64,000 nucleotides of DNA. Origin: Microbacterium immunditiarum (GTDB taxonomy: Bacteria; Actinomycetota; Actinomycetes; Actinomycetales; Microbacteriaceae). Positions within the stretch are counted from its first letter, which is position 1; each line of letters opens with the position of its first letter. Below are positions 6,164 to 63,393 of the stretch, piece by piece. The notes beneath the pieces are model-generated. The model was not told the DNA's origin and ran no database searches. It saw only the letters and a list, made by a program, of their open reading frames with translations. The position numbers and the translations under genes were made by a program. The stretch is from NCBI RefSeq assembly GCF_013409785.1, contig NZ_JACCBV010000001.1, positions 682,001 to 746,000 on the forward strand. The letters are read 5' to 3'.

Positions 6164-6203
6164 CGGATGCCCCGACCCGCGTTGGGGCCGAGGCATCCGT
6201 TTC
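6164..6203. terminator. bidirectional terminator made of CGGATGCC/GGCATCCG
   Basis: CGGATGCC (6164-6171) pairs with GGCATCCG (6192-6199), with further interrupted pairing inside and a short T-run after. It lies between the converging chorismate mutase and ABC permease genes. Confidence 0.75.
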
Positions 6204-6232
6204 CCCGGGCGAAGCCCGATTCCCGAGGCGTC

Positions 6233-6928
6233 TCAGGGCACCGCACGCCGCAGCGTGAGGAACGAGATCGCCGCGAGCACCGCGCCGAGGAGCAGCCCCC
6301 ACAGACCGAGGCCGAGCGCGCCCTGGGCGCCGATCCAGCCGAACACCTGCCCCCACGCCTCGAGCAGTCCGGTGAGGAACATCCCGAGCACCAGGAGGGC
6401 CGCGATCCCCGCGAGGACGGCTGTGAGCACGACCGATCCGAACCGCTTGTAGATCGTCGCCGCCCAGAATCCGACGACGAAGAACAGCATCGTGACCGCG
6501 AAGAAGAACAGGGCGGCGCCGAGCGGGCCCGCCTCCCAGATCCATGGCAGGTAGAAGAAGTAGCCGTTCATGCCCCACCCGCCGGTGGCGTTCTCGATGA
6601 CACCGCCGATCACGAACACCGCGGAGAGGATCGCTCCGGTCATCGCGGCGGCGAGCAGCGTTCCGAGGTAGAACTCGCGCCGCGTTACGCTCATCGCCTG
6701 CGAGAACGGAAACGTGAGCGTGAGCGACTGCACGCCCACGACCGCGAAGTACCACAGGGGGGCTTGGGCGCCGCCGCCGTACAGCGGGCTGTCGGCGCCG
6801 GCGTTGCGGATGATGGCGTAGATCGCGAGGGTGATCAGCAATGAACCGCCGAGCACCATGAGAGGCACCCAGATGTAGGTCTGGCGGTTGATCAGCTGCA
6901 TGCGGACGACGTTGACGGTGCGGTTCAT
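6233..6928 (-). CDS. ABC transporter permease subunit
   Basis: A 231-residue protein with about six membrane segments: residues about 18-38, 52-72, 95-118, 130-158, 168-190 and 195-215. It is the last gene of a GntR-ATPase-permease operon; its start overlaps the ATPase stop by 4 nt, which suggests translational coupling. QAMSVTRREFYLGTLLAAA is the cytoplasmic loop before the third helix seen in ABC-2-like permeases. The small size and partner fit an exporter or lipid/antibiotic resistance system similar in plan to YtrA-controlled operons. The substrate is unknown. Confidence 0.8.
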   Translation of the reverse strand: MNRTVNVVRMQLINRQTYIWVPLMVLGGSLLITLAIYAIIRNAGADSPLYGGGAQAPLWYFAVVGVQSLTLTFPFSQAMSVTRREFYLGTLLAAAMTGAILSAVFVIGGVIENATGGWGMNGYFFYLPWIWEAGPLGAALFFFAVTMLFFVVGFWAATIYKRFGSVVLTAVLAGIAALLVLGMFLTGLLEAWGQVFGWIGAQGALGLGLWGLLLGAVLAAISFLTLRRAVP

Positions 6929-7875
6929 CGCAGAGCTCCTTCGTCGAGGTCGGCGTCGGTGGAGGAGGCCGCAGAGGCGGATGCGGCGGCGCCGGCCGCC
7001 GTGCCCGAGACGTGCTGCGTCAAGCGCACGATGAGCTGCTGCAGCGACACCGGGGCGAGGTCGAGTCCGGCCGCGGCGAGGCGCCCCCGCTCGGCGGCCG
7101 TGAGCGTGCCGAGGACGGTCACGCTGGAGACGTGCCCGAGGCTCTCGCGGTGGATCACCTCGCGTCCGGCGACGAATGCCTCGACTGCGGCGGAGTCGCC
7201 GACGATGTTCGTGGCGCGGTCGCGCACGGCATCCGTGTCTTCATCCATGATGATGCGCCCGCGATCGATCACGAGCACCTTCTCGATGAGGTTCGAGACC
7301 TCGTCGATCAGGTGGCTCGAGAGGATCACCGTGCGGGGGTGCTCGGCGTAGTCCTCGAGCAGGCGATCGTAGAAGATCTGGCGCGCGACGGCGTCGAGTC
7401 CGAGGTACGGCTCGTCGAAGAACGTGATCTCGGCGCGCGACGCGAGCCCGATGATGACCCCGACGGCCGAGAGCTGACCGCGCGAGAGCTTCTTGATGCG
7501 GCGCTTGACGGGCAGCTGGAAGTCGTCGATGAGGCGCTCGGCGAACTCCTGGTCCCAGTTCGGGAAGAAGAGTCGAGCCGTGTCGAACGCGTGGCGCGGC
7601 ATCGCGTCGTCGGGGTACTTCTGGCTCTCGCGCACGAAGCACATGCGGCTGAGCACGCGTGCGTTCTCGTACGGATGCTCGCCGAACACGCGCAGGTCGC
7701 CGCGTGTCGGGAAGTTCTGCGCCGTGAGGATCGACATCACGGTGGTCTTTCCGGCGCCGTTGCGCCCGAGCAGGCCGTAGATGGTGTCTTTCTCGATCGA
7801 GAAGCTCACGTCGTCGACCGCGAGCGTGTCGCGGTAGCGCTTCGTGAGACTCGTCACCTCGATCACGGAGGTCAT
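6925..7875 (-). CDS. ABC transporter ATP-binding protein
   Basis: A 316-residue ATPase with all nucleotide-binding motifs: Walker A GRNGAGKTT near residue 37-45, an LSRGQLSAVG signature at about 134-143 (the usual SGGQ is replaced by SRGQ), Walker B ITFFDEPYLGLD at about 155-166, and the H-loop in SSHLIDEVSN. The C-terminal third has the extension typical of exporter ATPases, ending in a low-complexity Ala/Ser tail. It overlaps both neighbours by 4 nt, so the three genes form one transcription and translation unit. It powers the small permease encoded next. Confidence 0.92.
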   Translation of the reverse strand: MTSVIEVTSLTKRYRDTLAVDDVSFSIEKDTIYGLLGRNGAGKTTVMSILTAQNFPTRGDLRVFGEHPYENARVLSRMCFVRESQKYPDDAMPRHAFDTARLFFPNWDQEFAERLIDDFQLPVKRRIKKLSRGQLSAVGVIIGLASRAEITFFDEPYLGLDAVARQIFYDRLLEDYAEHPRTVILSSHLIDEVSNLIEKVLVIDRGRIIMDEDTDAVRDRATNIVGDSAAVEAFVAGREVIHRESLGHVSSVTVLGTLTAAERGRLAAAGLDLAPVSLQQLIVRLTQHVSGTAAGAAASASAASSTDADLDEGALR

Positions 7876-8276
7876 CGGATCGTCCCTTCGGTGGTGGTCT
7901 GGTTCGGTTTCGAGGGCAGTTCGGCGTCGCGTTCGCGGATGAGGCGCGCGACGTCATCGGGCGTGAAGCCCAGCCTCCGCGCCTCGGTCATCAGCGGCTC
8001 GATGAAGTTGTCGGCGAACGCCGTCCGTCGCTCGGCGAGCAGCATCTCGCGCGCTCCAGTCGCGACGAACATGCCGATGCCGCGGCGCTTGTAGAGCACG
8101 CCCCGGTCGACGAGCATGGCGATCCCCTTCGCTGCGGTTGCGGGATTGATGCGATGGAAGGCGGCGAGCTCATTCGTCGATGGAGCCTGCGACTCTTCGG
8201 CCAGGCTGCCGTCGACGATGGCGTCTCCGACGCTCTCCGCGATCTGCACGTAGAGCGGTCGCCCCTCTTCGATCAC
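7872..8276 (-). CDS. GntR family regulator, YtrA type
   Basis: At 134 residues this is a short GntR protein: a winged helix at residues about 5-75 (PLYVQIAESVGDAIVDG, then INPATAAKGIAMLVDRGVLYKRRGIGMFV) followed by a helical tail of only about 55 residues. That size and its position as the first gene of an ABC operon define the YtrA subfamily, usually repressors of their own transporter. The GTG start at 8276 has CAGGGAG upstream. A TTACT/AGTAA palindrome overlaps its promoter (8302-8317), so autorepression is likely. Confidence 0.88.
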   Translation of the reverse strand: MIEEGRPLYVQIAESVGDAIVDGSLAEESQAPSTNELAAFHRINPATAAKGIAMLVDRGVLYKRRGIGMFVATGAREMLLAERRTAFADNFIEPLMTEARRLGFTPDDVARLIRERDAELPSKPNQTTTEGTIR

Positions 8277-8301
8277 ACGTGCTCCCTGGTTCGGTGGTGC
8301 A

Positions 8302-8341
8302 TTACTCGACTAAGTAACCATACAACCCCGTTGCGTGTCAA
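8302..8341 (-). promoter_or_regulatory. promoter and palindromic operator of the GntR-ABC operon
   Basis: On the minus strand TTGACA (8336-8341) is followed after 17-18 nt by GTTACT/TTACTT. The palindrome TTACTCGACTAAGTAA (8302-8317), with 5-bp TTACT/AGTAA arms, covers this -10 region. A repressor bound here would block RNA polymerase, as known for YtrA-type regulators. Confidence 0.65.
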
Positions 8342-8386
8342 CTGCGAGCCGGGGTGACATCCTGAGAGCGGCGAGAGGAGGGCCGG

Positions 8387-9250: not shown

Positions 9251-10323
9251 TGCGCGTGCCGCCGAAGTGGGTGCGACGAGTGGTGATCGCTCCCTTGGTG
9301 GTGATCCTGGGGCTCGTGCTGCTCGTGCTCATCCCGGTCGGCTGGCTGATCTTCTTCGCGCTGCTGTCGCTCATCCCCCGCCATATGCGCGCTCCGCGGA
9401 TCGTGTGGCTCGTGTTCGTCTACGTCGTGTGGGACGCGGCACTGCTCGTGTGCCTGTTGGCGCTGTGGCTCGCGTCGGGGTTCGGCTGGAAGCTGCGATC
9501 GCCCGCCTTCGTGCGCGCGCACTATCGCCTCGCCGCCTTCTTCCTGCGCGTGCTGTTCTGGATCTTCGAGGCGGTCCTGCGCCTGCACGTCGTGACGGCA
9601 GGGTCGGATGCCGCGGACACCGCGCTCGCCCACGACGAGTTCGTCGAGCTCTTCGACCACGACCTGCCGCTCGTCGTGGCGAGCCGCCACGGAGGGCCGG
9701 GCGATTCGTTCATCGTCGTGCACACGATGCTGAACGGAGTGGGGCGGATGCCGCGCATCGTGCTCAAGGACACGCTCCAATGGGACCCGGCGATCGACGT
9801 TCTGCTCAACCGGATTCCCACTCGGTTCATCGTGCCGTCGGGCTTCGCGAAGGTCGCGATCGGCGGCGGCCGCGCCGTGGAGGCGCAGATCGGGGCGCTC
9901 GCCGAGGGGCTGGCGGGCGACGACGCGCTCGTCATCTTCCCCGAGGGCGGTCAGGCCACCCCGCTCCGGCGGATCAGCCGCATCGAGCGGCTGCGCAAGG
10001 CGGGCCGCACCGACATGGCGGTCCGCGCCGAAGCGCTGCGCCACGTCATGCCGCCGCAGCCCGGCGGTGTGCACGCGGCGCTCACGGCGGCGCCGGACTC
10101 GGACGTGGTGCTCATCGCGCATACGGGTCTCGAGCGGCTCTCGTCGATGCACGACCTCTGGCGCGAGCTTCCGATGGAGAAGCGCATCAGGATGCGCGCG
10201 TGGCGCATCCCACGCGCGGACATCCCGGCCGAGCCGGATGCCCAGGCGGAGTGGCTCTTCGGGTGGTTCGAGCGCCTCGACGCGTGGATCGACGCGCACG
10301 ACGACGCACCGCGGGCGGACTGA
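9250..10323 (+). CDS. PlsC-like acyltransferase, membrane-anchored
   Basis: A 357-residue protein; the ATG at 9250 overlaps the patatin stop. Three N-terminal hydrophobic segments (about residues 12-45, 52-78 and 90-115) precede a soluble domain. RHGGPGD (H-x4-D, near residue 150) and IFPEGG (near 230) match the catalytic and acyl-acceptor motifs of glycerolphosphate acyltransferases; a later PRADIPAEPD segment has no assigned role. It probably re-acylates lysophospholipids or a related acceptor. It converges with the next gene with only 3 nt between stops. Confidence 0.75.
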   Translation: MRVPPKWVRRVVIAPLVVILGLVLLVLIPVGWLIFFALLSLIPRHMRAPRIVWLVFVYVVWDAALLVCLLALWLASGFGWKLRSPAFVRAHYRLAAFFLRVLFWIFEAVLRLHVVTAGSDAADTALAHDEFVELFDHDLPLVVASRHGGPGDSFIVVHTMLNGVGRMPRIVLKDTLQWDPAIDVLLNRIPTRFIVPSGFAKVAIGGGRAVEAQIGALAEGLAGDDALVIFPEGGQATPLRRISRIERLRKAGRTDMAVRAEALRHVMPPQPGGVHAALTAAPDSDVVLIAHTGLERLSSMHDLWRELPMEKRIRMRAWRIPRADIPAEPDAQAEWLFGWFERLDAWIDAHDDAPRAD

Positions 10324-10326
10324 CGG

Positions 10327-12224: not shown

Positions 12225-14570
<2,346 letters not shown>

Positions 14571-16742: not shown

Positions 16743-16743
16743 C

Positions 16744-17724
16744 ATGCCCGTCACCGCCGTCACCACCGACCCCGAAGCACTCACGATGACGGTCACGGCG
16801 GACTTCGCCGCGCCCGTCGACCGGCTGTGGAACGCGTTCACCGATCCGCGCCAGCTCGAGCGTTTCTGGGGTCCTCCCGGCTGGCCGGCCACGTTCACGC
16901 AGTTCGACTTCCAGGCCGGCGGATTCGTGAGGTACCACATGACCAGCCCGCGGGGTGAGTCCTCCACAGGCATGTGGGAAGTCCTCTCGATCGACGAGCC
17001 GCGCAGCTTCGAGGTGCTCGACTCCTTCGCCGACGAAGCGGGCAACCCGATCGCGGACATGCCCGCGTCGCGCATGGTCTTCACCTTCACCGAGACGGCC
17101 GAGGGCTCGCGCCTGACGAACGTCACGCACTTCACCTCGGCAGAGGCTCTCGAACAGGTTGTCGAGATGGGCGCCGTCGAGGGCGCGACGATGGCCATGA
17201 ACCAGCTCGACCGGGTGCTCGAAGGTCTGCGGGCGTACGCGCAGGGCAAGGGTGTGCAGACCGAGATCCTCGACGACCAGCACGTGCGCATCACGCGGCT
17301 CATCGAGGGTCCGATCGACCTCGTGTGGCGCGCCCACACCGAGCCCGAGCTGCTCGAGAAGTGGATGCTCGGCCCCGAGGGCTGGCGCATGTCGGCGTGC
17401 GAGGTCGACCTCTCCGTCGGCGGGCGCTACCGCTACGCGTGGGAGCCCGTCGGCGACACGGAGGGCCAGGCGTTCGGATTCGACGGCGAGCACCTGCTCA
17501 TCGACTCCCCTCGCCGCATCGTGACGACCGAGCACATGACCGGCACGGACTACCCGTCGACCCTCAACGATCTCAACCTCTACGAGGAGGACGGCGCCAC
17601 TCTCGTCACGCTGCTCATCGAGTATCCCGACGCGCAGACGCGCGACGCGGTGCTCGCGACCGGCATGACCGAGGGGATGGAGTCGAGCTACCAGCGGCTC
17701 GAGGGCGTGCTCGCGACGGTCTGA
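16744..17724 (+). CDS. tandem SRPBCC (AHSA1-like) domain protein
   Basis: A 326-residue protein with two START-like SRPBCC domains in a row: residues about 10-155 (FAAPVDRLWNAFTDPRQLERFWGPPGWPATF) and about 180-320 (IEGPIDLVWRAHTEPELLEKWMLGPEGWRM). Single-domain homologues bind hydrophobic ligands or Hsp90-type partners; a fused pair is less common. GAAGGAG precedes the ATG and the ArsR stop is 1 nt upstream, so the genes are co-transcribed under the 16341-16358 operator. A strong terminator follows 14 nt after the stop. Confidence 0.85.
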   Translation: MPVTAVTTDPEALTMTVTADFAAPVDRLWNAFTDPRQLERFWGPPGWPATFTQFDFQAGGFVRYHMTSPRGESSTGMWEVLSIDEPRSFEVLDSFADEAGNPIADMPASRMVFTFTETAEGSRLTNVTHFTSAEALEQVVEMGAVEGATMAMNQLDRVLEGLRAYAQGKGVQTEILDDQHVRITRLIEGPIDLVWRAHTEPELLEKWMLGPEGWRMSACEVDLSVGGRYRYAWEPVGDTEGQAFGFDGEHLLIDSPRRIVTTEHMTGTDYPSTLNDLNLYEEDGATLVTLLIEYPDAQTRDAVLATGMTEGMESSYQRLEGVLATV

Positions 17725-17738: not shown

Positions 17739-17770
17739 CGGATGCCGCGGCCCCGTGGTCGCGGCATCCG
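17739..17770 (+). terminator. terminator hairpin CGGATGCCGCG / CGCGGCATCCG
   Basis: An 11-bp perfect stem (17739-17749 with 17760-17770) and a 10-nt loop, 14 nt after the SRPBCC stop. Both arms carry the over-represented GGATGCC word. Confidence 0.85.
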
Positions 17771-18007: not shown

Positions 18008-18562
18008 GTGAACACCGACTTCCCGCGCGACCTCGTCTTCACCGCGGCACTGTTCGGCGTCGCGGCCTTCGTGTGGGCGGGGTGGGCGCAGGAGTCCCCG
18101 CCGAGATCCGTGTGGTGGCGCGTGCTGCTCGGCGCGATGGGCCTCGCCGGGGTGGCGCTCGCGGCGCTCACGATCCCGACGCTCATCGCGAACTGGGGCT
18201 CGCCGTCGGCGCTGCGGCCGGGCACCGGGGCGTTCATCACCTACATCGTCGTCTTCTGGGTCGAGTTCCTCCTGGCAGGGGTCCTGGCCTTCTTCGCGAT
18301 CCGCGCCGGGCTCAGCGATCTCGTGGCGCCGCTCATCCTCGCGATCGTGGGCATCCACTTCTTCGCGCTCGCGCCCGTCCTCGGGCAGCCGGTGCTGTTC
18401 ATCCCGGCGGTGCTGCTGACGCTCATCGCGGTCGGGACGGCGGTGCTCCCGGCATCCGATGTCGCCCACAGCTTCTGGTGCGGGGTGCTCGGGGCGCCCG
18501 TGTTCCTCGCCGTCGGGGCGTGGTGCGGGGTGGTGGGCACCGCCGCCCTGCGCACGGGCTGA
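18008..18562 (+). CDS. integral membrane protein of unknown function
   Basis: 184 residues with six hydrophobic segments: about 8-27, 36-57, 76-98, 103-123, 128-150 and 160-180. Loops are short, with no catalytic motifs. No named family is recognised, though small six-helix proteins of this kind are frequent in Actinobacteria. GTG 18008 is preceded by TAACGT (17996-18001) with a 6-nt gap and no Shine-Dalgarno, consistent with a leaderless mRNA. It converges with the phosphoesterase gene across 21 nt. Confidence 0.75.
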   Translation: MNTDFPRDLVFTAALFGVAAFVWAGWAQESPPRSVWWRVLLGAMGLAGVALAALTIPTLIANWGSPSALRPGTGAFITYIVVFWVEFLLAGVLAFFAIRAGLSDLVAPLILAIVGIHFFALAPVLGQPVLFIPAVLLTLIAVGTAVLPASDVAHSFWCGVLGAPVFLAVGAWCGVVGTAALRTG

Positions 18563-21181: not shown

Positions 21182-22920
<1,739 letters not shown>

Positions 22921-22966
22921 CTACGCCGGGGCGGGGCATCCGGCTCTGCCCGGGTGTTCCGATCGC

Positions 22967-23046
22967 CGAGTGCACGACTTGCCGCCGAGCGCACGCCCTG
23001 GCCGCGCACGCGACCCGTGCACTCGGCGCGCCGCCGTGCACTCGCG
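22967..23046. repeat. four-armed GTGCACTCG repeat, copy 1
   Basis: CGAGTGCACGAC (22967-22978) and CGAGCGCACGC (22986-22996) run forward; CGTGCACTCGGCG (23016-23028) and CGTGCACTCGCG (23035-23046) run in reverse. It lies between the divergent sufS and VanZ genes. Related copies are at 25525 and 38692. Confidence 0.8.
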
Positions 23047-23135
23047 AGGACGGCGAAGCGCCTCACGGCCGCTCCAGACTCGAGCGCGACGCGAGGACAA
23101 CGGGCCGCGTGGGCGCCCCGCCGTAGACTCGCTGC

Positions 23136-24203
23136 GTGGACGACAGGGTCGGCCTCGGACTCGTGGCGATGCTGATCGGAGTGCTGATCGGAGTCGCACT
23201 CCTCGTGCCGTTCGTCGCCCTCAGCTACCGGCGTCGGGGCAGGCTCGGGGCCGGGCGAGCGAGCCTGTGGTTCGCGGCGCTCGTCTACTTCTTCGCGATC
23301 TGGACCTACACTCTGCTGCCGCTCCCAGACCCGGACGCCGTGACGTGTGCCGGCGCGAACCTCGACCCGTTCGCGTTCGTCGACGACATCGGGCGCGCCG
23401 TCGGGCCCACAGGCCCCGTGCTCACCGACCCTGCGCTGCTGCAGCTCCTGCTCAACGTCGTGCTCTTCGTGCCGCTCGGCTTCTTCGTGCGCGTGCTGGG
23501 CGGACGCGGCATCGTCGTCGCGGGGCTCGTCGGGCTCGGCGTATCCGCGTTCATCGAGACGACCCAGCTCACCGGCGTGTGGGGCCTTTACCCGTGCGCC
23601 TATCGCGTGTTCGACGTCGACGACCTGCTCACGAACACGGTCGGCGCGCTCCTCGGATCCGTCGTGGGACTCATCGTGCCCAAGAGCCGGCGCGGCATGT
23701 CGCGCCTGCCCGACGCCGATCTGCCGCGGCCAGTCACACGCCGTCGGCGGCTGCTGGGGATGCTGTGCGACGTCCTCGGCGCCGCCCTGACGTCCTGGGC
23801 GTCCGCAGTGATCGTGCAGGCGGCGCTCTACGCGCTCGGCGCGCACGAGGAGGTCGCCGACGGAACCGCCGCGGGCGTCGTGGGCGACGTGACCGCGATC
23901 GTCATCTGGTTCCTCGTCATCATGACGACCGGCCGTTCCGTGGGCGACTTCGCGGTGCTGCTGCGGTTCGAGGGCACGACCTACCCCGTGTGGCTCGCGC
24001 GGCTGCTCCGCTTCGCGGGTGGAATCGGGGGGTACCTCGTCCTCGTCGCCCTGCCCGGCGCATGGGGGCTTGTCGGAGGGATCTTCGCCGCGCTGTCTCT
24101 CGTCCTCATGCTCACGACCGACGATCGCGGCGGCCTCCCGGGGATCGTGTCAGGACAGAAGCTCGTCGACGCGCGCGTGCGAGAGCTGCTCGAGTACGGG
24201 TGA
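23136..24203 (+). CDS. VanZ-like and RDD-like membrane protein
   Basis: A 355-residue polytopic protein. Residues about 1-185 match VanZ: a first helix, then YFFAIWTYTLLPLPD, LLNVVLFVPLGFFVRVLGG, SAFIETTQL and VFDVDDLLTNTVGALLG. The C-terminal part (about 205-345) has three more helices starting RRRLLGMLCDVLGAALTSW and resembles an RDD domain. Such VanZ-RDD fusions occur in Actinobacteria; VanZ proper gives low-level teicoplanin resistance, but the role here is unknown. TAGACT (23124-23129) is 6 nt before GTG 23136, a leaderless arrangement. Confidence 0.82.
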   Translation: MDDRVGLGLVAMLIGVLIGVALLVPFVALSYRRRGRLGAGRASLWFAALVYFFAIWTYTLLPLPDPDAVTCAGANLDPFAFVDDIGRAVGPTGPVLTDPALLQLLLNVVLFVPLGFFVRVLGGRGIVVAGLVGLGVSAFIETTQLTGVWGLYPCAYRVFDVDDLLTNTVGALLGSVVGLIVPKSRRGMSRLPDADLPRPVTRRRRLLGMLCDVLGAALTSWASAVIVQAALYALGAHEEVADGTAAGVVGDVTAIVIWFLVIMTTGRSVGDFAVLLRFEGTTYPVWLARLLRFAGGIGGYLVLVALPGAWGLVGGIFAALSLVLMLTTDDRGGLPGIVSGQKLVDARVRELLEYG

Positions 24204-24221
24204 CGGATGCCGCGGCATCCG
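24204..24221. terminator. CGGATGCCGCGGCATCCG palindrome between converging genes
   Basis: A perfect 18-bp palindrome directly after the VanZ stop and 5 nt before the M20 stop. It is an inverted pair of the GGATGCC word and probably terminates both genes. Confidence 0.7.
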
Positions 24222-24226: not shown

Positions 24227-25489
24227 CTACTTCGCCTCGGCCGGCTCGCCCTCCGGGGCCCCCAGGAACTCCCGCGCCGCGACCACCAGCGCGTCGACGC
24301 CCCGCTCGATCGTCGGGTGCAGCACGGGTGCGAAGAACGGCGAGTGGTTGGTGGGGATCGCGCTCTCAAGCGTGCCGGATGCCTTCGCCTCCGCGAACTT
24401 CTCGGGGTCGATGCCGCCCCAGAACCAGTACACGAGCGGAACGCCCGCCTCGCGAGCGAACCACGAGACGTCCTCGCTGCCGGTGAACATGCCCGGGTCG
24501 ACGACGGTCCCCTCGCCGAACGCGCCGTTGAAGGCGTGCGTGAGCCGCGTCGTCGCGACGGGGTCGTTGATCGTCGGGGGAAGCGTGTGGTCGGTGACGA
24601 TGGTCGGCGGGACCTCCGCACCGGATGCCGCGGCCTCGGCCCGCACGATGCGCTCGACCTTCTCGAGCACGCGCTCGCGGGCCGCGTCGTCAGGGTAGCG
24701 CAGGCTGAGCTCGAGCGTCGCCTCGGCGGGGATGATGTTGTTCTTGAGGCCCGCGTGGATCGAGCCGACCGTCACGACGGCGACGTCGCGCGGGTCGATC
24801 TCGCGCGACACGATCGTCTGCAGCCGCATGACGGTCGCCGCGGCCATCACGACGGGGTCGATCGTCGAGTGCGGGCGCGATCCGTGGCCGCCGCGGCCGA
24901 AGAGCGTGACGGTGAGCCCGTCGGAGGCCGCCATCTGCGTGCCCGGGCGCACGCCGATCGTGCCCGCCGGCAACGGGGTGATGTGCTGGCCGAGGACGAT
25001 GTCGGGCTTGGGGAACCGGTCGAGCACGCCGTCGGCGATCATCGACTGCGCGCCGGCCCCGTGCTCCTCCGCGGGCTGGAACACGGCGACGACCGTCCCA
25101 GCCCATTCGTCCTTCGTCGCGACGAGCCGCTCGAGCGCGCCGAGCATCGCGGTCACGTGCATGTCGTGTCCGCACGCGTGCATGACCGGGACATCCGTGC
25201 CGGAGGCGTCGACGCCGCGCGCGGTGCTCGCGTACTCGAGGCCCGTCCGCTCCTCGACGGGCAGGGCGTCCATGTCGGCGCGCAGCCACACGACGGGTCG
25301 GTCGGTCCCTGAGCCTGTCGAAGGGTTGCGGATCACCGCCGCGACGCCCGTCTTGCCGATGCCCTCCTCGAACTCGATCCCGAGATCGGTGAGGTGCTGG
25401 GTGACGATCCCCGCGGTGCGCGTCTCTTGAAACGAGAGCTCCGGGTGCCGGTGCAGGTCGATGTACAGCGCCTCGAGGTCTATCGTCAT
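24227..25489 (-). CDS. M20 family amidohydrolase (hippurate hydrolase-like)
   Basis: About 420 residues from ATG 25489, a zinc-dependent amidase of the M20D group that releases amino acids from N-acyl or conjugated substrates. It contains LHRHPELSFQE, LRADMDALPVEE, MHACGHDMHVTAMLG and FQPAEEHGAGAQSM, which hold the metal ligands and catalytic Glu. TAGGCT (minus strand, 25497-25502) is 7 nt before the ATG, so the longer frame to 25552 is rejected. Residues about 55-62 (NPSTGSGT) are encoded by a CCCTGAGCCTGTCGAAGGG repeat inserted between strands. Confidence 0.9.
   Translation of the reverse strand: MTIDLEALYIDLHRHPELSFQETRTAGIVTQHLTDLGIEFEEGIGKTGVAAVIRNPSTGSGTDRPVVWLRADMDALPVEERTGLEYASTARGVDASGTDVPVMHACGHDMHVTAMLGALERLVATKDEWAGTVVAVFQPAEEHGAGAQSMIADGVLDRFPKPDIVLGQHITPLPAGTIGVRPGTQMAASDGLTVTLFGRGGHGSRPHSTIDPVVMAAATVMRLQTIVSREIDPRDVAVVTVGSIHAGLKNNIIPAEATLELSLRYPDDAARERVLEKVERIVRAEAAASGAEVPPTIVTDHTLPPTINDPVATTRLTHAFNGAFGEGTVVDPGMFTGSEDVSWFAREAGVPLVYWFWGGIDPEKFAEAKASGTLESAIPTNHSPFFAPVLHPTIERGVDALVVAAREFLGAPEGEPAEAK
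25307..25325. repeat. CCCTGAGCCTGTCGAAGGG repeat inside the M20 gene
   Basis: A 19-nt word with CCCT/AAGGG ends, well known as an abundant dispersed repeat in high-GC Actinobacteria and sphingomonads. Here it lies in frame and adds a Ser/Gly loop. Confidence 0.65.
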
Positions 25490-25524
25490 GCGGACGAGCC
25501 TAGCCGGGAGGCTCTTTCCGGCGC

Positions 25525-25604
25525 CGAGTGCACGACTTCCCGTCGAGTGCACGGACTGGGCGCGTCGCGAAGCCGTGCCCTGGACGCGAAGCCGTGCACT
25601 CGCG
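25525..25604. repeat. four-armed GTGCACTCG repeat, copy 2
   Basis: Forward CGAGTGCACGAC (25525-25536) and CGAGTGCACG (25544-25553); reversed CGTGCCCTGGACG (25574-25586, diverged) and CGTGCACTCGCG (25593-25604). It lies between the LacI stop and the M20 start. Confidence 0.75.
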
Positions 25605-25632
25605 AACGTGGAGCGGGGAAGGGGGCCGGTGC

Positions 25633-38631: not shown

Positions 38632-38691
38632 GTGAATGGATAACGCGGGGCATCCGGTGTTTCATTCCCGCCCCGGTGAAATCATGCTCGC

Positions 38692-38772
38692 CGAGTGCAC
38701 GACATCGCGTCGAGCGCACGACCTGCCGACGCGGCGAAGTCGTGCACTCGACGGCATGCCGTGCACTCGGCG
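38692..38772. repeat. four-armed GTGCACTCG repeat, copy 3
   Basis: Forward CGAGTGCACGAC (38692-38703) and CGAGCGCACGAC (38711-38722); reversed GTCGTGCACTCG (38739-38750) and CGTGCACTCGGCG (38760-38772). This is the best preserved of the three copies. It lies between the uracil permease stop and the VOC start. Confidence 0.82.
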
Positions 38773-48974: not shown

Positions 48975-50120
48975 GTGGCCTCCCCCTCCCGCGACGCCCC
49001 CGCGAATCCCTACACCGAAGCCGGCGTCGACACCGCTGCGGGCGATCTCGCAGTGGAGTTGATGAAGTCGGCCGTCCGCCGTACCCACGGGCCTGAAGTG
49101 CTCGGAGGAGTGGGCGGTTTCGCCGGGCTCTTCGACGCGACGGCGTTCAAGGCGTACGACAAGCCCCTGCTCGCGACGAGCACCGACGGCGTCGGCACGA
49201 AGGTCGCGATCGCGCAGGCGATCGACAAGCACGACACGATCGGCCTCGACCTCGTGGGCATGGTCGTCGACGACATCGTCGTAGTGGGCGCGAAGCCGCT
49301 GTTCATGACGGACTACATCGCGTGCGGGAAGGTGGTTCCCGAGCGCATCGCCGACATCGTGCGCGGCATCGCGGCCGGGTGCGCCGAGACCGGCACCGCG
49401 CTCGTCGGCGGCGAGACGGCCGAGCATCCCGGACTCCTCGGTCCCGACGACTACGACGTGGCCGGCGCCGCGACCGGCGTCGTCGACGCGAACCACGTGC
49501 TCGGCGCCGAGCGCGTGCGGACAGGCGACGTCGTCCTCGCGCTCGCGAGCAGCGGACTCCACTCGAACGGCTACTCGCTCGTGCGCCACATCGTCTCTCG
49601 CGCCGGCGTGCAGTACGGCGACCGCGCGCCCGACCTCGGCTCGCACGGCACAACATGGGGCGAGGCACTCCTCGAGCCGACGCGCCTGTACACCGCTCCC
49701 CTGCTGCGGCTCATCGCCGACCACGGCGACCGCGTCCACGCGCTGAGCCACATCACGGGCGGCGGCATCGCCGCGAACGTGGCGCGCGTCCTTCCGCGCG
49801 GCACGTGGGTCGACGTCGACCGCTCGACGTGGTCGCCTCCGCCGGTGTTCCGCGTGCTCGCCGACCTCGGCGGACTCGACCTGACCTCGACCGAGGGCAC
49901 GTGGAACCTCGGCATCGGCTTCGTGGCGGTCGTGTCGGCAGACAAGGCGGATGCCGCGGCATCCGCCCTCGCCCAAGACGGCATCGCGGCCTGGCAGGTC
50001 GGCGTCGTGAACGAAGGTCCGCTCCCCGAGGGCGGTGCGGCCTTCGAGCAGGGCGCGAAGGGCGTCGACGGCGGAGCCGTGCGCCTCGTCGGAACGTACG
50101 CGGACGACGCCGCGGCATAA
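48975..50120 (+). CDS. purM: phosphoribosylformylglycinamidine cyclo-ligase
   Basis: 381 residues from GTG 48975. Closes FGAM to AIR with ATP. YTEAGVDTAAGDLAVELM, FDATAFKAYDKPLLATSTDGVGTKVAIA, GMVVDDIVVVGAKPLFMTDY and the late HSNGYSLVRHI and HITGGGIAANVARVLP are PurM signatures. TAGGCT (48962-48967) ends 7 nt before the GTG, so it is probably leaderless. purF follows 25 nt later, likely on the same transcript. Confidence 0.97.
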   Translation: MASPSRDAPANPYTEAGVDTAAGDLAVELMKSAVRRTHGPEVLGGVGGFAGLFDATAFKAYDKPLLATSTDGVGTKVAIAQAIDKHDTIGLDLVGMVVDDIVVVGAKPLFMTDYIACGKVVPERIADIVRGIAAGCAETGTALVGGETAEHPGLLGPDDYDVAGAATGVVDANHVLGAERVRTGDVVLALASSGLHSNGYSLVRHIVSRAGVQYGDRAPDLGSHGTTWGEALLEPTRLYTAPLLRLIADHGDRVHALSHITGGGIAANVARVLPRGTWVDVDRSTWSPPPVFRVLADLGGLDLTSTEGTWNLGIGFVAVVSADKADAAASALAQDGIAAWQVGVVNEGPLPEGGAAFEQGAKGVDGGAVRLVGTYADDAAA

Positions 50121-50145: not shown

Positions 50146-51606
50146 ATGTGCGGCATCGTCGGAATGGTCGGCCAGGCGCCGGTCAACCAGGAGATCTACG
50201 ACGCCCTGCTGCTGCTGCAGCACCGAGGCCAGGACTCCACAGGCATCTCGACCGCCGAGCACAACGGCGTGTTCCACCTCGCCAAGGCGCGCGGCATGGT
50301 GCGCGAGGCGTTCCGCACGCGCGACATGCGATCGCTGCTCGGCAACATCGGGCTCGGCCACTGTCGCTACGCCACGAAGGGCACGGCGTCGAGCGAGGAA
50401 GAGGCGCAGCCGTTCTACGTGAACGCGCCGTACGGCATCGTGCTCGTGCACAACGGCAACCTCACGAACACGCGCGAGCTCACCGAGGAGCTGTTCCACA
50501 AGGACCGCCGCCACCTCAACACGAGCTCCGACACCGAGCTGCTCGTCAACGTGCTCGCGAACGAGCTGCAGGCGTCGATCTCGGGGCTGCAGCTCGACGC
50601 CGACCAGATCTTCCAGGCGGTCGCTCGCGTGCACGAGCGCGTCGAGGGCTCGTACGCCGCTGTCGCGCTCATCGCCGGATACGGCCTCCTCGCGTTCCGC
50701 GACCCGTTCGGCATCCGCCCGCTCATCATGGGAGTGCGCGACGCCGGCGACGGCAAGTACGAGTGGATCGTGGCATCCGAGTCGCTCGTGCTCGAGAACG
50801 CCGGCTTCGACGTCGTGCGCGACGTCCTGCCGGGCGAGGCCGTGTTCATCGACCTCGACGGTCACCTGCACACGAAGCAGTGCGCCCCCGATCCGAAGCT
50901 CGTGCCGTGCTCGTTCGAGTACGTGTACCTGGCCCGGCCCGACTCGATCATGAACGGTATCTCGGTGTACGAGGCGCGCCTGCGCATGGGCGAGCGCCTC
51001 GCCGACACGATCGCGAAGTACACCCCGAAGGGCGCGATCGACGTCGTCATGCCGATCCCCGACTCGTCGCGCCCCGCGGCGATGCAGGTCGCGCGCAAGC
51101 TCGGCATCGAGTACCGCGAGGGCTTCTACAAGAACCGCTACGTCGGCCGGACGTTCATCATGCCCGGCCAGGCGGTCCGCAAGCAGAGCGTGCGTCAGAA
51201 GCTCAACGCGATGTCGAGCGAGTTCAAGGGCAAGAACGTGCTGCTCATCGACGACTCGATCGTGCGCGGCACGACGTCGAAGCAGATCATCCAGATGGCG
51301 CGCGACGCCGGCGCCAAGAGCGTCACGTTCGCGTCCGCCGCTCCCCCGGTCCGCTACCCGCACGTCTACGGCATCAACATGCCCTCGCGTCACGAGCTCG
51401 TCGCCCATGGGCGCACGATCCCGGAGATCGCGAAGGAGCTCGGCGCGGACTACATGGTCTTCCAGGAGGTGGAGGATCTCAAGGCGGCGATCCTCGAGGG
51501 CTCCGACCTCGACGACCTCGACATGAGCTGCTTCGACGGCCGCTACATCACGGGAACCGTCACCGAGGAGTACCTCAGCTGGGTGGAGGGCTCGCAGGAG
51601 TCCTGA
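50146..51606 (+). CDS. purF: amidophosphoribosyltransferase
   Basis: 486 residues from ATG 50146. The first and controlling step of purine synthesis, making phosphoribosylamine from PRPP and glutamine. The catalytic Cys is residue 2 (MCGIVGMVG), so there is no propeptide to cleave, unlike the Bacillus subtilis enzyme. LLLQHRGQDSTGIS and GHCRYATKG belong to the glutaminase half; VLLIDDSIVRGTTSKQI (about 367-383) is the PRPP loop. CGGAG lies 11-12 nt before the ATG, so translation uses a leader from the purM transcript. A terminator follows. Confidence 0.97.
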   Translation: MCGIVGMVGQAPVNQEIYDALLLLQHRGQDSTGISTAEHNGVFHLAKARGMVREAFRTRDMRSLLGNIGLGHCRYATKGTASSEEEAQPFYVNAPYGIVLVHNGNLTNTRELTEELFHKDRRHLNTSSDTELLVNVLANELQASISGLQLDADQIFQAVARVHERVEGSYAAVALIAGYGLLAFRDPFGIRPLIMGVRDAGDGKYEWIVASESLVLENAGFDVVRDVLPGEAVFIDLDGHLHTKQCAPDPKLVPCSFEYVYLARPDSIMNGISVYEARLRMGERLADTIAKYTPKGAIDVVMPIPDSSRPAAMQVARKLGIEYREGFYKNRYVGRTFIMPGQAVRKQSVRQKLNAMSSEFKGKNVLLIDDSIVRGTTSKQIIQMARDAGAKSVTFASAAPPVRYPHVYGINMPSRHELVAHGRTIPEIAKELGADYMVFQEVEDLKAAILEGSDLDDLDMSCFDGRYITGTVTEEYLSWVEGSQES

Positions 51607-51634: not shown

Positions 51635-51676
51635 CGGATGCCCCGGCCGCCCGCTCGCGCGGGCCCGAGGCATCCG
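51635..51676. terminator. terminator between purF and the DJ-1 gene
   Basis: CGGATGCC (51635-51642) pairs with GGCATCCG (51669-51676), and CCCGC/GCGGG forms an inner stem. It lies between converging genes and again uses the GGATGCC word. Confidence 0.8.
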
Positions 51677-51693: not shown

Positions 51694-52260
51694 CTACGCG
51701 GTGACCTTCGCTCCCTCGAGCACGTCGAGGAACGCCTTCATCCAGGTGCCGTTGTCGGGCCACGCGCGTCCCGTGACGAGGTTGCCGTCGACGACCCCGC
51801 CGCCGTTCTCGAAGATGCCGCCCGCCGTCTCGACGTCGACCGCGAGCTCGGGGTACGCCGACGACGTGCGGCCCTGGAGCACGCCGGCGGCCGCGAGCAG
51901 CAGCGGTCCGTGGCACAGCGCCGCGACCGGCTCGTTGCGCTCGAAGAAGTGGCGGACGATGCGCTTCGCGTCCTCGTTGTTGCGGATGTACTCGGGCGCC
52001 CGCCCTCCGGGGACCACGATGGCGACGTAGTCCTCGGGGTTCACGTCGGCGAAGGCGATGTCGGCCTCCCACGTGTGTCCGAGCTTCTCGGTGTAGGTGT
52101 CGAAGCCGTCGACGAAGTCGTGCACGACGAACTGCAGCCTGCGCTTCTCGGGCGCGCCGATGTGCACCTCGTAACCGGCCTCCTGCAGCCGGTGGTACGG
52201 ATAGAACACTTCGAGCGTCTCGGCGGCGTCGCCGGTGAGGATGAGGATCTTGTCGGCCAT
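51694..52260 (-). CDS. DJ-1/PfpI family protein
   Basis: 188 residues with the class I amidotransferase-like fold. The nucleophile elbow is VAALCHGPLLLAAAGVLQG (Cys near residue 113), preceded by IVVPGGRAPEYIRN and followed by DGNLVTGRAWPDNG with a tentative acidic partner. Family members act in stress protection as glyoxalases, deglycases or proteases; the exact one is undecided. AAAGGAAC precedes the ATG. It is divergent from an IclR gene and might be its target. Confidence 0.85.
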   Translation of the reverse strand: MADKILILTGDAAETLEVFYPYHRLQEAGYEVHIGAPEKRRLQFVVHDFVDGFDTYTEKLGHTWEADIAFADVNPEDYVAIVVPGGRAPEYIRNNEDAKRIVRHFFERNEPVAALCHGPLLLAAAGVLQGRTSSAYPELAVDVETAGGIFENGGGVVDGNLVTGRAWPDNGTWMKAFLDVLEGAKVTA

Positions 52261-55830: not shown

Positions 55831-56607
55831 ATGACCGAGGAGTGGTCCATTCAGCAGATCGCGAAGCTCGCGGGCACCACGAGCCGCACACTGCGTCACT
55901 ACGACGACATCGGACTGCTCGCGCCGTCCCGCATCGGCGGCAACGGCTACCGGTACTACGACGAGCGGGCCCTCGTGCGGCTGCAGCGGATCCTCCTGCT
56001 GCGCGAACTCGGACTCGGCCTGCCGCAGATCCAGGACCTGCTCGCGAACGACACCGCCGAGGTGCCCGCCCTCGAGGCGCACCTCGCGTGGCTCCGGCAG
56101 GAGCAGAGCCGGCTGGCGCGCCAGATCGCGTCGGTCGAGTCGACCATCGACGCCTTGAGAGGAGGTGAACCCCTGATGGCAGAGAACATGTTCGACGGCT
56201 TCGACCACACGAAGTACAAGGACGAGGTCGAAGAGCGTTGGGGCAAGAAGGCCTACGCCGACAGCGACCGCTGGTGGCGCTCGATGAACGCCGAAGAGAA
56301 GGCGGCGTGGCAGCAGAAGGTCTCAGACCTCGGTCGCGACTGGATCGCCGCCGCCGAGCGCGGCATCGCTCCGGACAGCGACGAGGCGCAGGCACTCGCG
56401 AAGCGCCACGTGGAGTGGCTGACCGGAGTCCCCGGCACGCCCGCGGCGACGCCGGGCGGTGATGTGAAGGCTTACGTCATCGGCCTCGGCGAGATGTACG
56501 TGGCCGATCCTCGGTTCGGTGCGAACTACGCCACGAGCGCGGGCGGCAGCGCCGGCGCAGAGTTCGTGCGCGATGCGCTGCGCGTGTACGCGGAGGCGAA
56601 CCTGTAG
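55831..56607 (+). CDS. TipA-like MerR regulator with TipAS ligand-binding domain
   Basis: 258 residues, close to the 253 of Streptomyces TipAL. MerR winged helix and coiled coil at 1-105 (SIQQIAKLAGTTSRTLRHYDDIGLL, then NGYRYYDERALVRLQRILLLRELGLGL), and the TipAS globin-like domain at about 116-258 (MFDGFDHTKYKDEVEERWG). It activates transcription when an antibiotic or other amphiphile binds. The TipAS part has no Cys, so it cannot trap thiopeptides covalently as TipA does. AAAGGAGG lies 5-6 nt before ATG 55831, and a second strong ribosome binding site occurs inside the gene. Confidence 0.92.
   Translation: MTEEWSIQQIAKLAGTTSRTLRHYDDIGLLAPSRIGGNGYRYYDERALVRLQRILLLRELGLGLPQIQDLLANDTAEVPALEAHLAWLRQEQSRLARQIASVESTIDALRGGEPLMAENMFDGFDHTKYKDEVEERWGKKAYADSDRWWRSMNAEEKAAWQQKVSDLGRDWIAAAERGIAPDSDEAQALAKRHVEWLTGVPGTPAATPGGDVKAYVIGLGEMYVADPRFGANYATSAGGSAGAEFVRDALRVYAEANL
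56160..56178 (+). promoter_or_regulatory. internal ribosome binding site and start for a separate TipAS protein
   Basis: AGGAGGTGA (56160-56168) lies 7 nt before an in-frame ATG (56176), which would give a 143-residue product with only the ligand-binding domain. In Streptomyces lividans TipAS (144 residues) is made the same way from tipA. Confidence 0.75.
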
Positions 56608-56625: not shown

Positions 56626-56665
56626 AGGCGGATGCCGCGACCGTCGTGGTCGTGGCATCCGCCTT
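56626..56665. terminator. strong terminator after the tipA-like gene
   Basis: AGGCGGATGCCGCGACC (56626-56642) pairs with GGTCGTGGCATCCGCCT (56648-56664) with one G-T pair around a GTCGT loop, then TTCTTCT. Both arms carry the GGATGCC word. It separates the gene from a converging small membrane gene. Confidence 0.9.
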
Positions 56666-58404: not shown

Positions 58405-58450
58405 TTCGTCTCGCTGCGCTCGCTCCGCGGCCGAAGGGTCAGCAGACCCT
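58405..58450. repeat. TTCGTCTCGCTGCGCTCGCT repeat with AGGGTC hairpin
   Basis: The reverse form of the GAGCGAGCGCAGCGAGACGAA-type dispersed word (58405-58425), followed by the hairpin AGGGTC-AGCA-GACCCT (58435-58450). It fills the gap after the topoisomerase gene and may terminate it. Confidence 0.6.
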
Positions 58451-58559
58451 CAGGGAGAGGCCATGACCGCCATGGAATACTGAACCCGATACATTCGCGT
58501 ATCCCGCCGCGGCGCTCGCCGCGCGCGTCTCCTTCCGCACCACTCCACCGAAGGCATCC

Positions 58560-61500: not shown

Positions 61501-62441
61501 GCGGCTTCATCTCGCAGCCGCTCGCGATCGTCGTGATCGGCGGGCTCGTGTCGTCGACCGTGCTCACGCTCCTCGTGCTGCCGACGCTCTACAACCTCGT
61601 CGAGGGCGCGAAGGAGCGGCGGGCCGCGCGGCGCGCGGGGCGCGACGGCTCGTCGGCAGGCGGGACGGATGCCGCGACCGGCGACGGCCCGACCGACGAC
61701 CAGCGCGAGCTCGTCGGAGCATCTCTGGGCGCCGCGGTCGTCGGCGGTGCCGTCGAGGGCGGAACGGAGCCGGTGTACGAGACGCGGCGTGCGCGGCGTG
61801 CGCGGCAGGCAGGGCTCGCGGTGGGGAACGCTGCGGTGGTCGAGCCGGCTTCCGCGGATGCTCCCGCCGACCAGTCCCCGACGGCGGATTCGGCCGCGGG
61901 GGCGTCGGGTGCGAAACCCGAGGTGGATGAGCCCGCGGCCGGCGAGCCGCTCGTGTTCATCGCCGAAGTGCCTGCCGAGTGGACGGAGCCGGTCGAGGAG
62001 GCGCCGCGACCGGAGTTCGTCGCGCCCTTCGTGGAGGAGCCGGGTGCTGATGAGGCCGAGTCGGAGGTCGAGTCGGAATCGGCGTCCGAGTCCGATGCGG
62101 AGTCCGATCCGGCGGTCGAGGTCGAGTCCGGGCCGCGGGTCGAGGACGAGTCCGAGGCGGAGCCCGCTGCCGGGGCCGAGTCCGAGGCGGAGGCGGAGGC
62201 CGAGCCGGTGCTCGACTCCGATCCGGCGGCTGTGTCGGACCCGGAGCCCGACGGGGAGCCGCAGCCCGAAGACGAGGCGCAGACCGAGCACGAACCGCAG
62301 CCGGATCCTGACGGGACGTCCGACTCGGACGCCGACGCGAACGAGCCTCAGGATGAGCAGCCCCACGCCGACACGGACGCGGACGCGGACGCCGGCGCCG
62401 ACTCGGACGCGGACACCGACCCCGAGCACCCCGACCGCTGA
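58560..62441 (+). CDS. RND-type efflux transporter (HAE1-like) with acidic C-terminal tail
   Basis: 1293 residues from GTG 58560. Proton-driven efflux pump of the RND superfamily: helix 1 at about 10-30, first periplasmic loop about 32-325, helices 2-6 at about 335-500, helix 7 near 530, second loop about 550-865, last five helices about 870-1020. GRVVDDSIVVIENIKRH (with VDDSIVVIEN) is the helix 4 signature, and the charged residues there carry protons; the repeat is GIVVTNAIVLVDLVNQ. Residues about 1030-1293 form a long Glu/Asp/Pro-rich tail with short repeats. No adaptor or outer-membrane gene is present, as expected for a Gram-positive. Confidence 0.92.
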   Translation: MSNLAVLSLKNRALIALITIVAAIFGGLALTNLKQELIPSIEFPALIVVSTYPGASPEVVSNDVSTPIEAAIQGVPGLESTSATSTTNASVIQASFTYGTNLATAEQKITQAINRIDSQLPDGVEPSVLTASIDDFPVIQLAVTGYDDEESIQAQLEASVIPDLEDVPGVNTAQTVGASGQRITITPDQAQLAASGFSQQAIRDALDQNGVLFPGGEITESEQTLTVQTGTKVTSVEELAALPLVPGDAAQFAAGTTTIGDVATVAQESDPITSISRVNGEPALTIAVTKLPAANTVDVSRGVLAVLPDLEESLGGAEFTVVFDQAPYIQQSIESLAQEGLLGLVFAVLVIFVFLLSVRSTLVAAISIPTSVLVTFVGIQAFGYSLNILTLGALTIAIGRVVDDSIVVIENIKRHYVGDADKRTAILRAVREVAAAITASTITTVAVFVPIAFVGDVTGELFRPFALTVTIAMSASLLVALTIVPVLAYWFLRPGKQILDAEGRAIDPEDPDAPPSRLQKAYLPILTWTLKHSWTTLLLAVLVLGGTIAAAPFMKTNFLGDSGQNTFTMTQDIGPAASLDAESAAAEQVEDVLQGIDGIETVQVSIGSSGSPLRDAFTGGGGGITYSITTDPDADQLALRDDVQAAVADLEDVGTITVAGGGGGFGSSDIEIDVTAPDSATLQEATDAVVAAVDGREGISQVSSNLAASLPFISVAVDRDKAASLGLSEVAVGALVSNTMQPQRIGTVEIGDTALTVFLAASQTPATIEELRALTVPSAAGPIPLSEVATVEQSEGPTSISTQRGQRTSTVTVTPATDDLNAASAAVNEALADTELPASADAELGGVLSQQQDAFSQLGLALLAAILIVYIVMVATFKSLRQPLLLLVSVPFAATGAILLQIITGVPLGVASLIGVLMLIGIVVTNAIVLVDLVNQYREKGLSAHDATIAGGSRRLRPILMTALATIFALTPMAMGITGHGGFISQPLAIVVIGGLVSSTVLTLLVLPTLYNLVEGAKERRAARRAGRDGSSAGGTDAATGDGPTDDQRELVGASLGAAVVGGAVEGGTEPVYETRRARRARQAGLAVGNAAVVEPASADAPADQSPTADSAAGASGAKPEVDEPAAGEPLVFIAEVPAEWTEPVEEAPRPEFVAPFVEEPGADEAESEVESESASESDAESDPAVEVESGPRVEDESEAEPAAGAESEAEAEAEPVLDSDPAAVSDPEPDGEPQPEDEAQTEHEPQPDPDGTSDSDADANEPQDEQPHADTDADADAGADSDADTDPEHPDR

Positions 62442-62446
62442 GCCCG

Positions 62447-62462
62447 TGCCTCGGGCGAGGCA
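62447..62462. terminator. terminator TGCCTCG-GG-CGAGGCA
   Basis: A 7-bp perfect stem between the RND stop and the converging lipoprotein gene. It directly precedes a GGCATCCG word. Confidence 0.65.
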
Positions 62463-62466
62463 TCCG

Positions 62467-63393
62467 TCAGTTCAGAGCCGGCTCGAACTCGAGCGGTACG
62501 TCGATGCCGTCCTCGTCGCCGGTGTACTCCGCCGTCGCGACGTGGGTCGCGCCGTCGACGACGAGCTCGACACGGTAGGTGAACGGGAAGTCGCCGAGCC
62601 GCGCGGCGGCGAGAGCCTCGGAATCGGGCTCGTCGAAGAACAGCCATCCGGCGCCGGGGCAATGCTCGGCGGGGCGTGCCTCGAAGGTGCGCGACTTGCC
62701 GTTCGCGGCCGTGACCGTGATGGTCGCGGAGTACTCGGCGGGCGTCTGCGCGAGATTCGCGACCGAGAGCTCGAGGCCGTACGAGTCGGGCTCCCCGTCG
62801 TGGTTCACGACGAGCACGAGCGAGGCCTCGGGTTCGGGCAGCGGCGCGTCGGCGGTCGTCGTCCAGCGGAGCGACGCGAACATGTCTCCGGAACCGCCCG
62901 GCGGAGCCAAGACGTCGCCGCCACCCTGGGATGCGAACAGGTCGACGGTGTAATCATCGGCCGGACCCTGCGGCGTCACCCGCCACCAGCCGCCGCCGAG
63001 GTCTTCGGTCTTCGCGTCGAGGGTGCGGCTGTCGCACGTGTATCGCTCGCCGCTCACCTGGACGGCGGTGAGGAGGTCGAAGTCCGGGATGAAGACGAGC
63101 ACGTCATCGGGCGACCCGATCGACGGCGGGTCGAGGTCGATGCCGTCGGCGCATCCGCTGTTCCAGCACCAGCCCGCGGCCGCTATGCGCAGTTCCGTCG
63201 AGTCGTAGCGCACGACGAACGGCGGCGGGCCCTGCTGCGAGAGCCGGCCGTGGTCGAGCGTCTCGGTCGGCGTGGGGAGCGGCACCGGCGGGTCGGTCGA
63301 GGGCTGCTGCCCCGCTGGGCCGCATCCGATGAGGGTGCCGCACAGCAGCGCGCTGCCCGTGAGCGCGAGGACCGCGGCGATGCGTCGGCGCAC
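62467..63393 (-). CDS. secreted lipoprotein of unknown function
   Basis: 308 residues with a lipoprotein signal: basic start, hydrophobic core, and GTLIGC with Cys24 as the lipidation site. A Pro/Thr-rich linker (about 30-45) follows, then two beta-rich parts: about 55-165, which includes a WCWNSGCADG Cys pair, and about 175-305, resembling an Ig-like or DUF-type beta sandwich. No catalytic motif is visible. GGGAGG precedes the GTG start. It would be anchored on the outer face of the membrane. Confidence 0.82.
   Translation of the reverse strand: MRRRIAAVLALTGSALLCGTLIGCGPAGQQPSTDPPVPLPTPTETLDHGRLSQQGPPPFVVRYDSTELRIAAAGWCWNSGCADGIDLDPPSIGSPDDVLVFIPDFDLLTAVQVSGERYTCDSRTLDAKTEDLGGGWWRVTPQGPADDYTVDLFASQGGGDVLAPPGGSGDMFASLRWTTTADAPLPEPEASLVLVVNHDGEPDSYGLELSVANLAQTPAEYSATITVTAANGKSRTFEARPAEHCPGAGWLFFDEPDSEALAAARLGDFPFTYRVELVVDGATHVATAEYTGDEDGIDVPLEFEPALN

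Follow-up and report, generated by a model that had tools for sequence, protein, structure and literature searches.

Why should one seven-letter word, GGATGCC, recur so often on both strands of a chromosome of Microbacterium immunditiarum? The question arises from a 64,000-nucleotide stretch of that genome (bases 682,001-746,000 of the complete 3,906,867-base chromosome; hereafter the window), for which an original prediction had claimed an excess of the word, both dispersed in genes and paired in terminators, and had compared this double use to the DNA uptake sequences (DUS) of Neisseria and Haemophilus. The analysis presented here, based on genome comparison, suggests that the core of the word, CGGATGCC, is probably a DNA uptake sequence of the host and one dialect of a system found throughout the Microbacteriaceae.

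The over-representation of GGATGCC is real and was confirmed quantitatively. The window contains 107 dispersed copies, counted on both strands and extending from position 198 to 62465, compared with a mean of 13.1 (standard deviation (sd) 3.5, maximum 25) in 100 dinucleotide shuffles. More than 30 copies had been marked by eye in the first 22 kb, where the actual count is 45. The whole genome has 4,866 copies (2,459 and 2,407 on the two strands) and only 250 (138 and 112) of the reversed word, employed as a control. Further statistics for the host were obtained from a sample of 864 kb out of 3.907 Mb, made up of 40 stretches of 20 kb taken round the chromosome plus the window, with genes called by our own codon model. 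This sample holds 1,097 copies. Under an order-3 Markov model the two largest outliers among its 7-mers are CGGATGC and GGATGCC, and the largest among its 8-mers is CGGATGCC, with 900 copies observed and 112 expected. In a profile of 932 isolated copies the preceding base is C in 82% of cases, while the three following positions favour G (62%), C (62%) and G (59%); the core of the word is CGGATGCC. A repeat element was rejected as the explanation, the isolated copies having in common only the preceding C and a weak following GCG. A search of the window against Rfam at gathering thresholds gave no match.

Such an excess might arise without any signal function, from base composition, codon use or mutation that depends on neighbouring bases, and several other high-GC 7-mers are indeed equally or more frequent: CGTCGAC, of the same composition, occurs 1,740 times in the sample against the 1,097 copies of GGATGCC. 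Equally common words of this kind had been named beforehand as a possible refutation. Those words are, however, as frequent as 4-mer composition predicts, whereas GGATGCC is not. The single-base variants of the word lie between 0.6 and 1.9 fold and are not raised in step with it. Three codon-aware nulls, described next, likewise fail to account for the count, and the poverty of foreign-like DNA in the word and the change of its spelling within a single genus, both detailed below, also argue against a by-product, which we consider very improbable. An artefact of composition or codon use was rejected on the Markov model, the codon nulls and the contexts of Asp codons. Two other words are over-represented in the window, CGAGCAGCTCG (13 counted, 0.6 expected) and TCTACAA (14 and 0.3), an excess that may reflect codon pairs.

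Within coding regions of the sample, 711 copies of CGGATGCC are observed. Synonymous shuffling that preserves the amino acids and the codon usage yields 95, and stricter versions in which the next base or the next amino acid is also kept yield 105 and 135, respectively (sd 8-9 throughout). The choice of Asp codons is particularly instructive. GAT makes up 14% of Asp codons in the host sample, as GCA makes up 6% of Ala codons. Where GAT completes the word, between G and GCC, it is used at 331 of 456 Asp positions (73%). Elsewhere its share falls to 11-29%: 89 of 604 where the G alone is absent, 83 of 289 where the G is followed by another GCN codon, and 1,227 of 10,873 where neither neighbour is present. 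Codon choice thus switches only where the switch completes the word. The two examples of forced rare codons originally placed near 9604 and 3766 are confirmed: the copy at 9606..9612 (+ strand), in the called gene 9298-10323 (+), reads G|GAT|GCC (Asp-Ala), and that at 3761..3767 (- strand), in the called gene 3288-4550 (+), reads G|GCA|TCC (Ala-Ser).

The same preference is visible between species. Related loci were retrieved through alignment of a Tad ATPase, giving 80 named loci whose best protein identity to the host is 82-83% and which assign the host to Microbacterium or its immediate neighbourhood. From these, 29 word-rich, Microbacterium-like loci were picked and, with locus L120, yielded 7,076 directional comparisons of orthologous genes at a mean identity of 78%; retention was counted where the amino acid was unchanged. 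The rare third base of GAT is retained at a rate of 0.56 inside words and 0.28 in other codons, that of GCA at 0.45 and 0.12, and that of CAT at 0.91 and 0.25 (16 sites only), so that rare third bases are two to four times better retained inside words, the cells of this test not being independent because the species share ancestry. Contexts one base away from the word give intermediate values of 0.30-0.40. Conservation of the whole heptamer is unspectacular, with 0.40 kept and the 95th percentile of words of the same composition at 0.41; this is a weak test and was therefore replaced by the codon-matched one. Together, the codon nulls, the context of GAT and the retention of third bases support the earlier proposal that the word is maintained at the level of DNA rather than protein, whether by selection or by drive.

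The word is spread almost evenly between coding and intergenic sequence, at 1.24 copies per kb within genes and 1.39 per kb between them, and its copies fall very unequally into the phases of called genes. A polar chromosome signal, such as FtsK-orienting polar sequences (KOPS) or Chi, would be another explanation; octamers over-represented at such density are known for these signals. No polarity is seen. With the origin placed near 725 kb from gene orientation, rather than located by dnaA, the inferred leading strand holds 526 of the 1,097 copies (p = 0.18), and the orientation imbalance never exceeds 3.3 percentage points whatever origin is assumed. The alternative raised in the original prediction, of a chromosome-organising or recombination signal, is weakened by these figures in its polar or Chi-like form, which we regard as scarcely credible.

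Examination of 150 genomes of the family shows how far the word extends. In the genus of the host, CGGATGCC is enriched at least 4-fold over its reversed control in 56 of 59 genomes, the host included; the genomes below this level are G215, G311 and G318. Across the family the corresponding figure is 85 of 150, and 126 of 150 reach at least 2-fold. For comparison, 111 genomes from 19 other families of the order yield ratios of about 0.5-3.8, so that strong enrichment is found only in the host's own family among the 20 sampled. GGATGCC is also the top-ranked 7-mer in 32 of the 62 loci used out of the 80 named ones, the majority of these loci being some 21 kb long. In the published literature covered (titles and abstracts; preprints and most subscription papers lay outside this scope), no such word is described in Microbacteriaceae or in any other actinobacterium.

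Where CGGATGCC is weak, another word often replaces it. GGATGCGC is found 1,805 times against 167 for its control in G100 and 1,929 against 192 in G073; it is enriched at least 4-fold in ten further genomes carrying Tad-b, one of the two Tad-type ATPases of the host introduced below, and in an eleventh on tiny counts. GCGGATCC reaches about 2,500-2,700 copies in G215 (of the host genus), G034 and G109, to be compared with 63 to 1,081 copies in the other searched genomes above 2.2 Mb, since its reversed control, in which CTAG occurs, is too scarce to be of use. In 21 kb of Microbacterium mitrae, CGGAACC has 37 copies and GGATGCC four. G010 has 235 copies of ACACCGATG against 9, GGAGGCGCGG is enriched in G035, and GGATGCCG is preferred in G106. 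There are perhaps at least four dialects (CGGATGCC, GGATGCGC, GCGGATCC and CGGAACCA), with ACACCGATG and GGAGGCGCGG as possible additions. GGA is common to several of the spellings, and the spelling differs between species inside one genus.

Other repeated sequences were encountered in these genomes. Repeats resembling repetitive extragenic palindromic (REP) elements, with CGTATCGAGAC and CTACTCGACC, occur in G045 (L055-L058) and G057 (L071-L074) and were set apart from the word. In G059 (1.6 Mb, low GC; L221-L222) a short repeat around GCTACAGAGCTAC has about 15 counts in 40 kb. The palindrome GATCCGGATC was counted 16 times, with 0.1 expected, on both strands of 80 kb of G096 (L047-L050), a genome with neither Tad-b nor enrichment of CGGATGCC.

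Copies of the word also tend to be paired. The sample has 43 face-to-face pairs within 50 bp, with about 17 expected, and 15 back-to-back pairs; of the 43, 24 lie in genes and 9 in convergent intergenic spaces. Five such pairs in the window, at 6164, 17739, 24204, 51635 and 56626, had been called terminators. All five exist within a few bases of these positions and fold as strong hairpins (-19.5 to -41.1 kcal/mol). A terminator scan that requires a T-run finds none of the five; the name terminator is therefore unproven, and they are terminator-like hairpins at most. The first, 6165/6192 (6165..6198; -31.3 kcal/mol, z -2.8), is situated between the convergent genes 5846-6145 (+) and 6233-6928 (-). 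The second, 17740/17763 (17740..17769; -39.6 kcal/mol, z -6.7), follows gene 16744-17724 (+) and precedes gene 18008-18562 (+). The third, 24205/24214 (24205..24220; -19.5 kcal/mol, z -2.2), consists of CGGATGCCGCGGCATCCG, an almost perfect palindrome, with the convergent genes 23136-24203 (+) and 24227-25489 (-) on either side. The fourth, 51636/51669 (51636..51675; -41.1 kcal/mol, z -3.4), lies between purF (50146-51606, +) and the convergent gene 51694-52260 (-), and the last, 56630/56654 (56630..56660; -39.5 kcal/mol, z -7.9), comes after gene 55831-56607 (+). Three further inverted pairs are located inside genes: 12893/12908 (12893..12914; -19.5 kcal/mol, z -2.0) in purL, 12225-14570 (-); 22396/22405 (22396..22411; -15.7 kcal/mol, z -2.6; families D2 and D7), again CGGATGCCGCGGCATCCG, in gene 21619-22911 (-); and 49949/49958 (49949..49964; -18.8 kcal/mol, z -3.0; family D7), also CGGATGCCGCGGCATCCG, in gene 48975-50120 (+). 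An 84-nucleotide element made of repeats of CGAGTGCACG, REP-like and unrelated to GGATGCC, is present in the window at 22964-23047, 25522-25605 and 38689-38772, the copies being 73-79% identical to the first.

A word recognised during uptake would call for suitable machinery. ComEC was found in the host as a Pfam match, and the adjoining gene is ComEA-like. The strong host matches to PF00437 are two Tad-type ATPases, their identity being taken from trees, while PilB-like full-length matches to that family, seen in G035, G110, G257 and G092, are absent in the host. As no ATPase of a type IVa pilus is among the PF00437 matches, the host is unlikely to use a ComP-type receptor carried by such a pilus. 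ATPase a is positioned near a holB-like gene; ATPase b (Tad-b) heads a tadA-tadB-tadC-flp-tadE-tadF-tadG run (for ComEA, TadB, TadC, Flp, TadE, TadF and TadG the names rest on position and inspection rather than on a family search). Excerpts of the literature are compatible with transformation in such organisms: both tad clusters are required for it in Micrococcus luteus (PMC4322843), two Microbacteriaceae are described as naturally transformable (PMC11577799), and a sludge study tied a spiked plasmid to a Microbacterium (PMC10257627).

Tad-b is present in 108 of the 150 family genomes (E <= 1e-60), among them all 30 genomes most enriched in CGGATGCC, and in all of the top 20 genera. The median log2 enrichment is 2.66 with Tad-b and 1.55 without (p = 4e-5 by genome); by genus the association gives p = 0.0006 for CGGATGCC and 0.0014 for the better of two words, all without correction for the tree. 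For the Tad-b pilins as candidate receptor, a comparison limited to their presence revealed no consistent pattern. In L174, the locus of the dialect-switched Microbacterium mitrae, the distance from tadA to the first pilin gene is about 3 kb greater than in the host, as would be the case with an insert between tadC and flp.

How might these observations be joined? Abundance, maintenance at the DNA level, absence of polarity, scarcity in foreign-like DNA, the excess of inverted pairs, the dialects, ComEC and the Tad-type ATPases are results of computation; from them we infer specific uptake, recombination drive and pilus-linked recognition, as well as any terminator function. Competent cells would carry a Tad/Flp-type pilus together with the ComEC channel, and a putative surface protein would bind the word in extracellular DNA. 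DNA carrying the word would be taken up and recombined more often, and imported word-bearing alleles would displace wordless ones, leading to a build-up in shared genes in both orientations. The word would be kept against codon bias and would stay scarcer in recently acquired DNA. It would also settle as inverted pairs, some of them intergenic, where the ending of transcription may be aided as well. The early comparison with the double use of DUS thus stands as regards abundance, non-polar occurrence in both orientations, scarcity in foreign-like DNA, inverted pairs and spellings that vary by lineage, the terminator role of the pairs being unproven. Better uptake of DNA that bears the word, the property by which uptake sequences are defined, is predicted on this reading.

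Foreign-like DNA was defined as 10-kb bins with a poor fit to the codon model of the host. The 7 bins of this kind hold 3.1 copies of CGGATGCC per 10 kb, and the 69 typical bins 11.3 (p = 0.0005 on GGATGCC counts), a difference due in part to their lower GC (0.65 and 0.71, respectively), which cuts the expected count. The reversed control is not reduced in the foreign-like bins (0.86, compared with 0.57 in typical ones). Low-GC foreign-like host stretches with few words include G000:C1:1-10000 (L004) and 97501-117500 (L024); an 8 kb piece of one low-GC island compared with phages gave no match.

The contribution of GC just described is one of several points that weigh against an uptake sequence. 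No uptake experiment on the word was found in the literature covered, and the available portions of the Micrococcus luteus paper (PMC4322843) contain no mention of an 'uptake sequence'. Within genes of the host sample there is no clear bias of copies towards gene ends, unlike the bias reported, in the parts of the source available, for the uptake signal sequences (USS) of Pasteurellaceae (PMC2346458). ComEC, present in 148 of the 150 family genomes and also in E. coli and other controls, is too widespread to be informative as the gene explaining gain or loss of the word. When ten Tad-b genomes low in CGGATGCC were inspected, at 40 kb each, seven gave no convincing word, one a repeat and two a word. 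In some word-rich loci no pilins could be recognised next to tadABC-b, and no receptor is proposed.

A further difficulty concerns Tad-b itself. An enriched word is present in 86 of the 108 genomes with Tad-b and also in 23 of the 42 without it, in a tally in which GGATGCGC was counted only for the 65 of 150 genomes low in CGGATGCC, G144 passes on 32 against 2, and G034, G109, G010 and G035 were entered manually on account of other dialects. A type IVa pair resembling PilB/PilT is found beside one Tad ATPase in fifteen of the 42, and eight of these fifteen bear a word. The other 27 have one Tad ATPase each, except that none was found in G099, which is 66% complete; they include 15 bearers, and words enriched 7.6- to 13-fold occur among them in G093, G026, G061, G007, G090, G043, G115 and G003. 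Within four genera of mixed Tad-b status, the Tad-b genome has the higher enrichment in one, is equal in one and lower in two. Tad-b was not upheld as necessary or sufficient, there being many exceptions. Some of these exceptions could be explained if Tad-b was lost recently and the word decays slowly, and some could mean that Tad-b is not the relevant pilus.

The same exceptions lend substance to a different explanation, that the word serves inside the cell as a signal without polarity, targeted by a chromosome-binding protein, a solitary methyltransferase or an enzyme of recombination or repair, and is preserved genome-wide on that account rather than for uptake. At least half of the genomes lacking Tad-b retain an enriched word, and maintenance at the DNA level, dispersion and inverted pairs are not by themselves specific to uptake. 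One dialect, moreover, is built on the palindrome GGATCC, which would also suit a restriction-modification site and so counts both for such a signal and against an uptake word. The scarcity in foreign-like DNA and the fast changes of spelling within a genus are nevertheless better suited to an uptake word, and it is the second Tad cluster that goes with the strongest enrichment. On these data, which cover the word itself and the competence and pilus genes, we consider an intracellular signal unlikely, and an uptake sequence to be the better account of the data.

A broader proposition follows the same lines, and the sequences incline us towards it, if by a narrow balance: this Gram-positive family may have a system of its own for sequence-specific uptake of DNA, linked to Tad/Flp pili instead of type IVa ones. 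The system would comprise four or more dialects, which have changed over even between members of one genus, and would have arisen in a third lineage, independently of the one known from Neisseriaceae and Pasteurellaceae, with a receptor of a new type. In two proteobacterial families such words are well documented, and it has long been asked why they evolve, whether through kin recognition, receptor preference or drive. If confirmed, neisserial DUS and pasteurellacean USS would have a counterpart working on the same principle in an actinobacterial family whose representative here has no type IVa ATPases. An independent actinobacterial case, with dialects and another type of pilus, would permit a comparative test of that question, and would allow a prediction of what DNA is exchanged among these bacteria of soil and water.

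Genome-wide over-represented octamers are familiar from HIP1 of cyanobacteria, Chi and KOPS. HIP1 differs from CGGATGCC in being palindromic, and Chi and KOPS differ from it in having an orientation tied to replication. The closer resemblance is to Neisseriaceae DUS, which in excerpts of their description (PMC3630211) likewise appear as a short dispersed word in both orientations, with inverted pairs, associated in that family with transcript ends, and dialects having a shared core. They differ in that the present word is an 8-letter, GC-rich actinobacterial one, several spellings of which share GGA, where DUS dialects share CTG, and in that the PF00437 matches of the host include no ATPase of a type IVa pilus. 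Pasteurellaceae USS share with CGGATGCC the character of an abundant short word, and the unequal phases seen here are matched, in the available portions of the same source as above (PMC2346458), by one orientation being commoner in reading frames; word and machinery are different. A parallel in machinery is offered by Micrococcus luteus, an actinobacterium in which two tad clusters and ComEA/ComEC are described in excerpts of the source (PMC4322843), where the host has ComEC, the ComEA-like neighbour and the two Tad-type ATPases.

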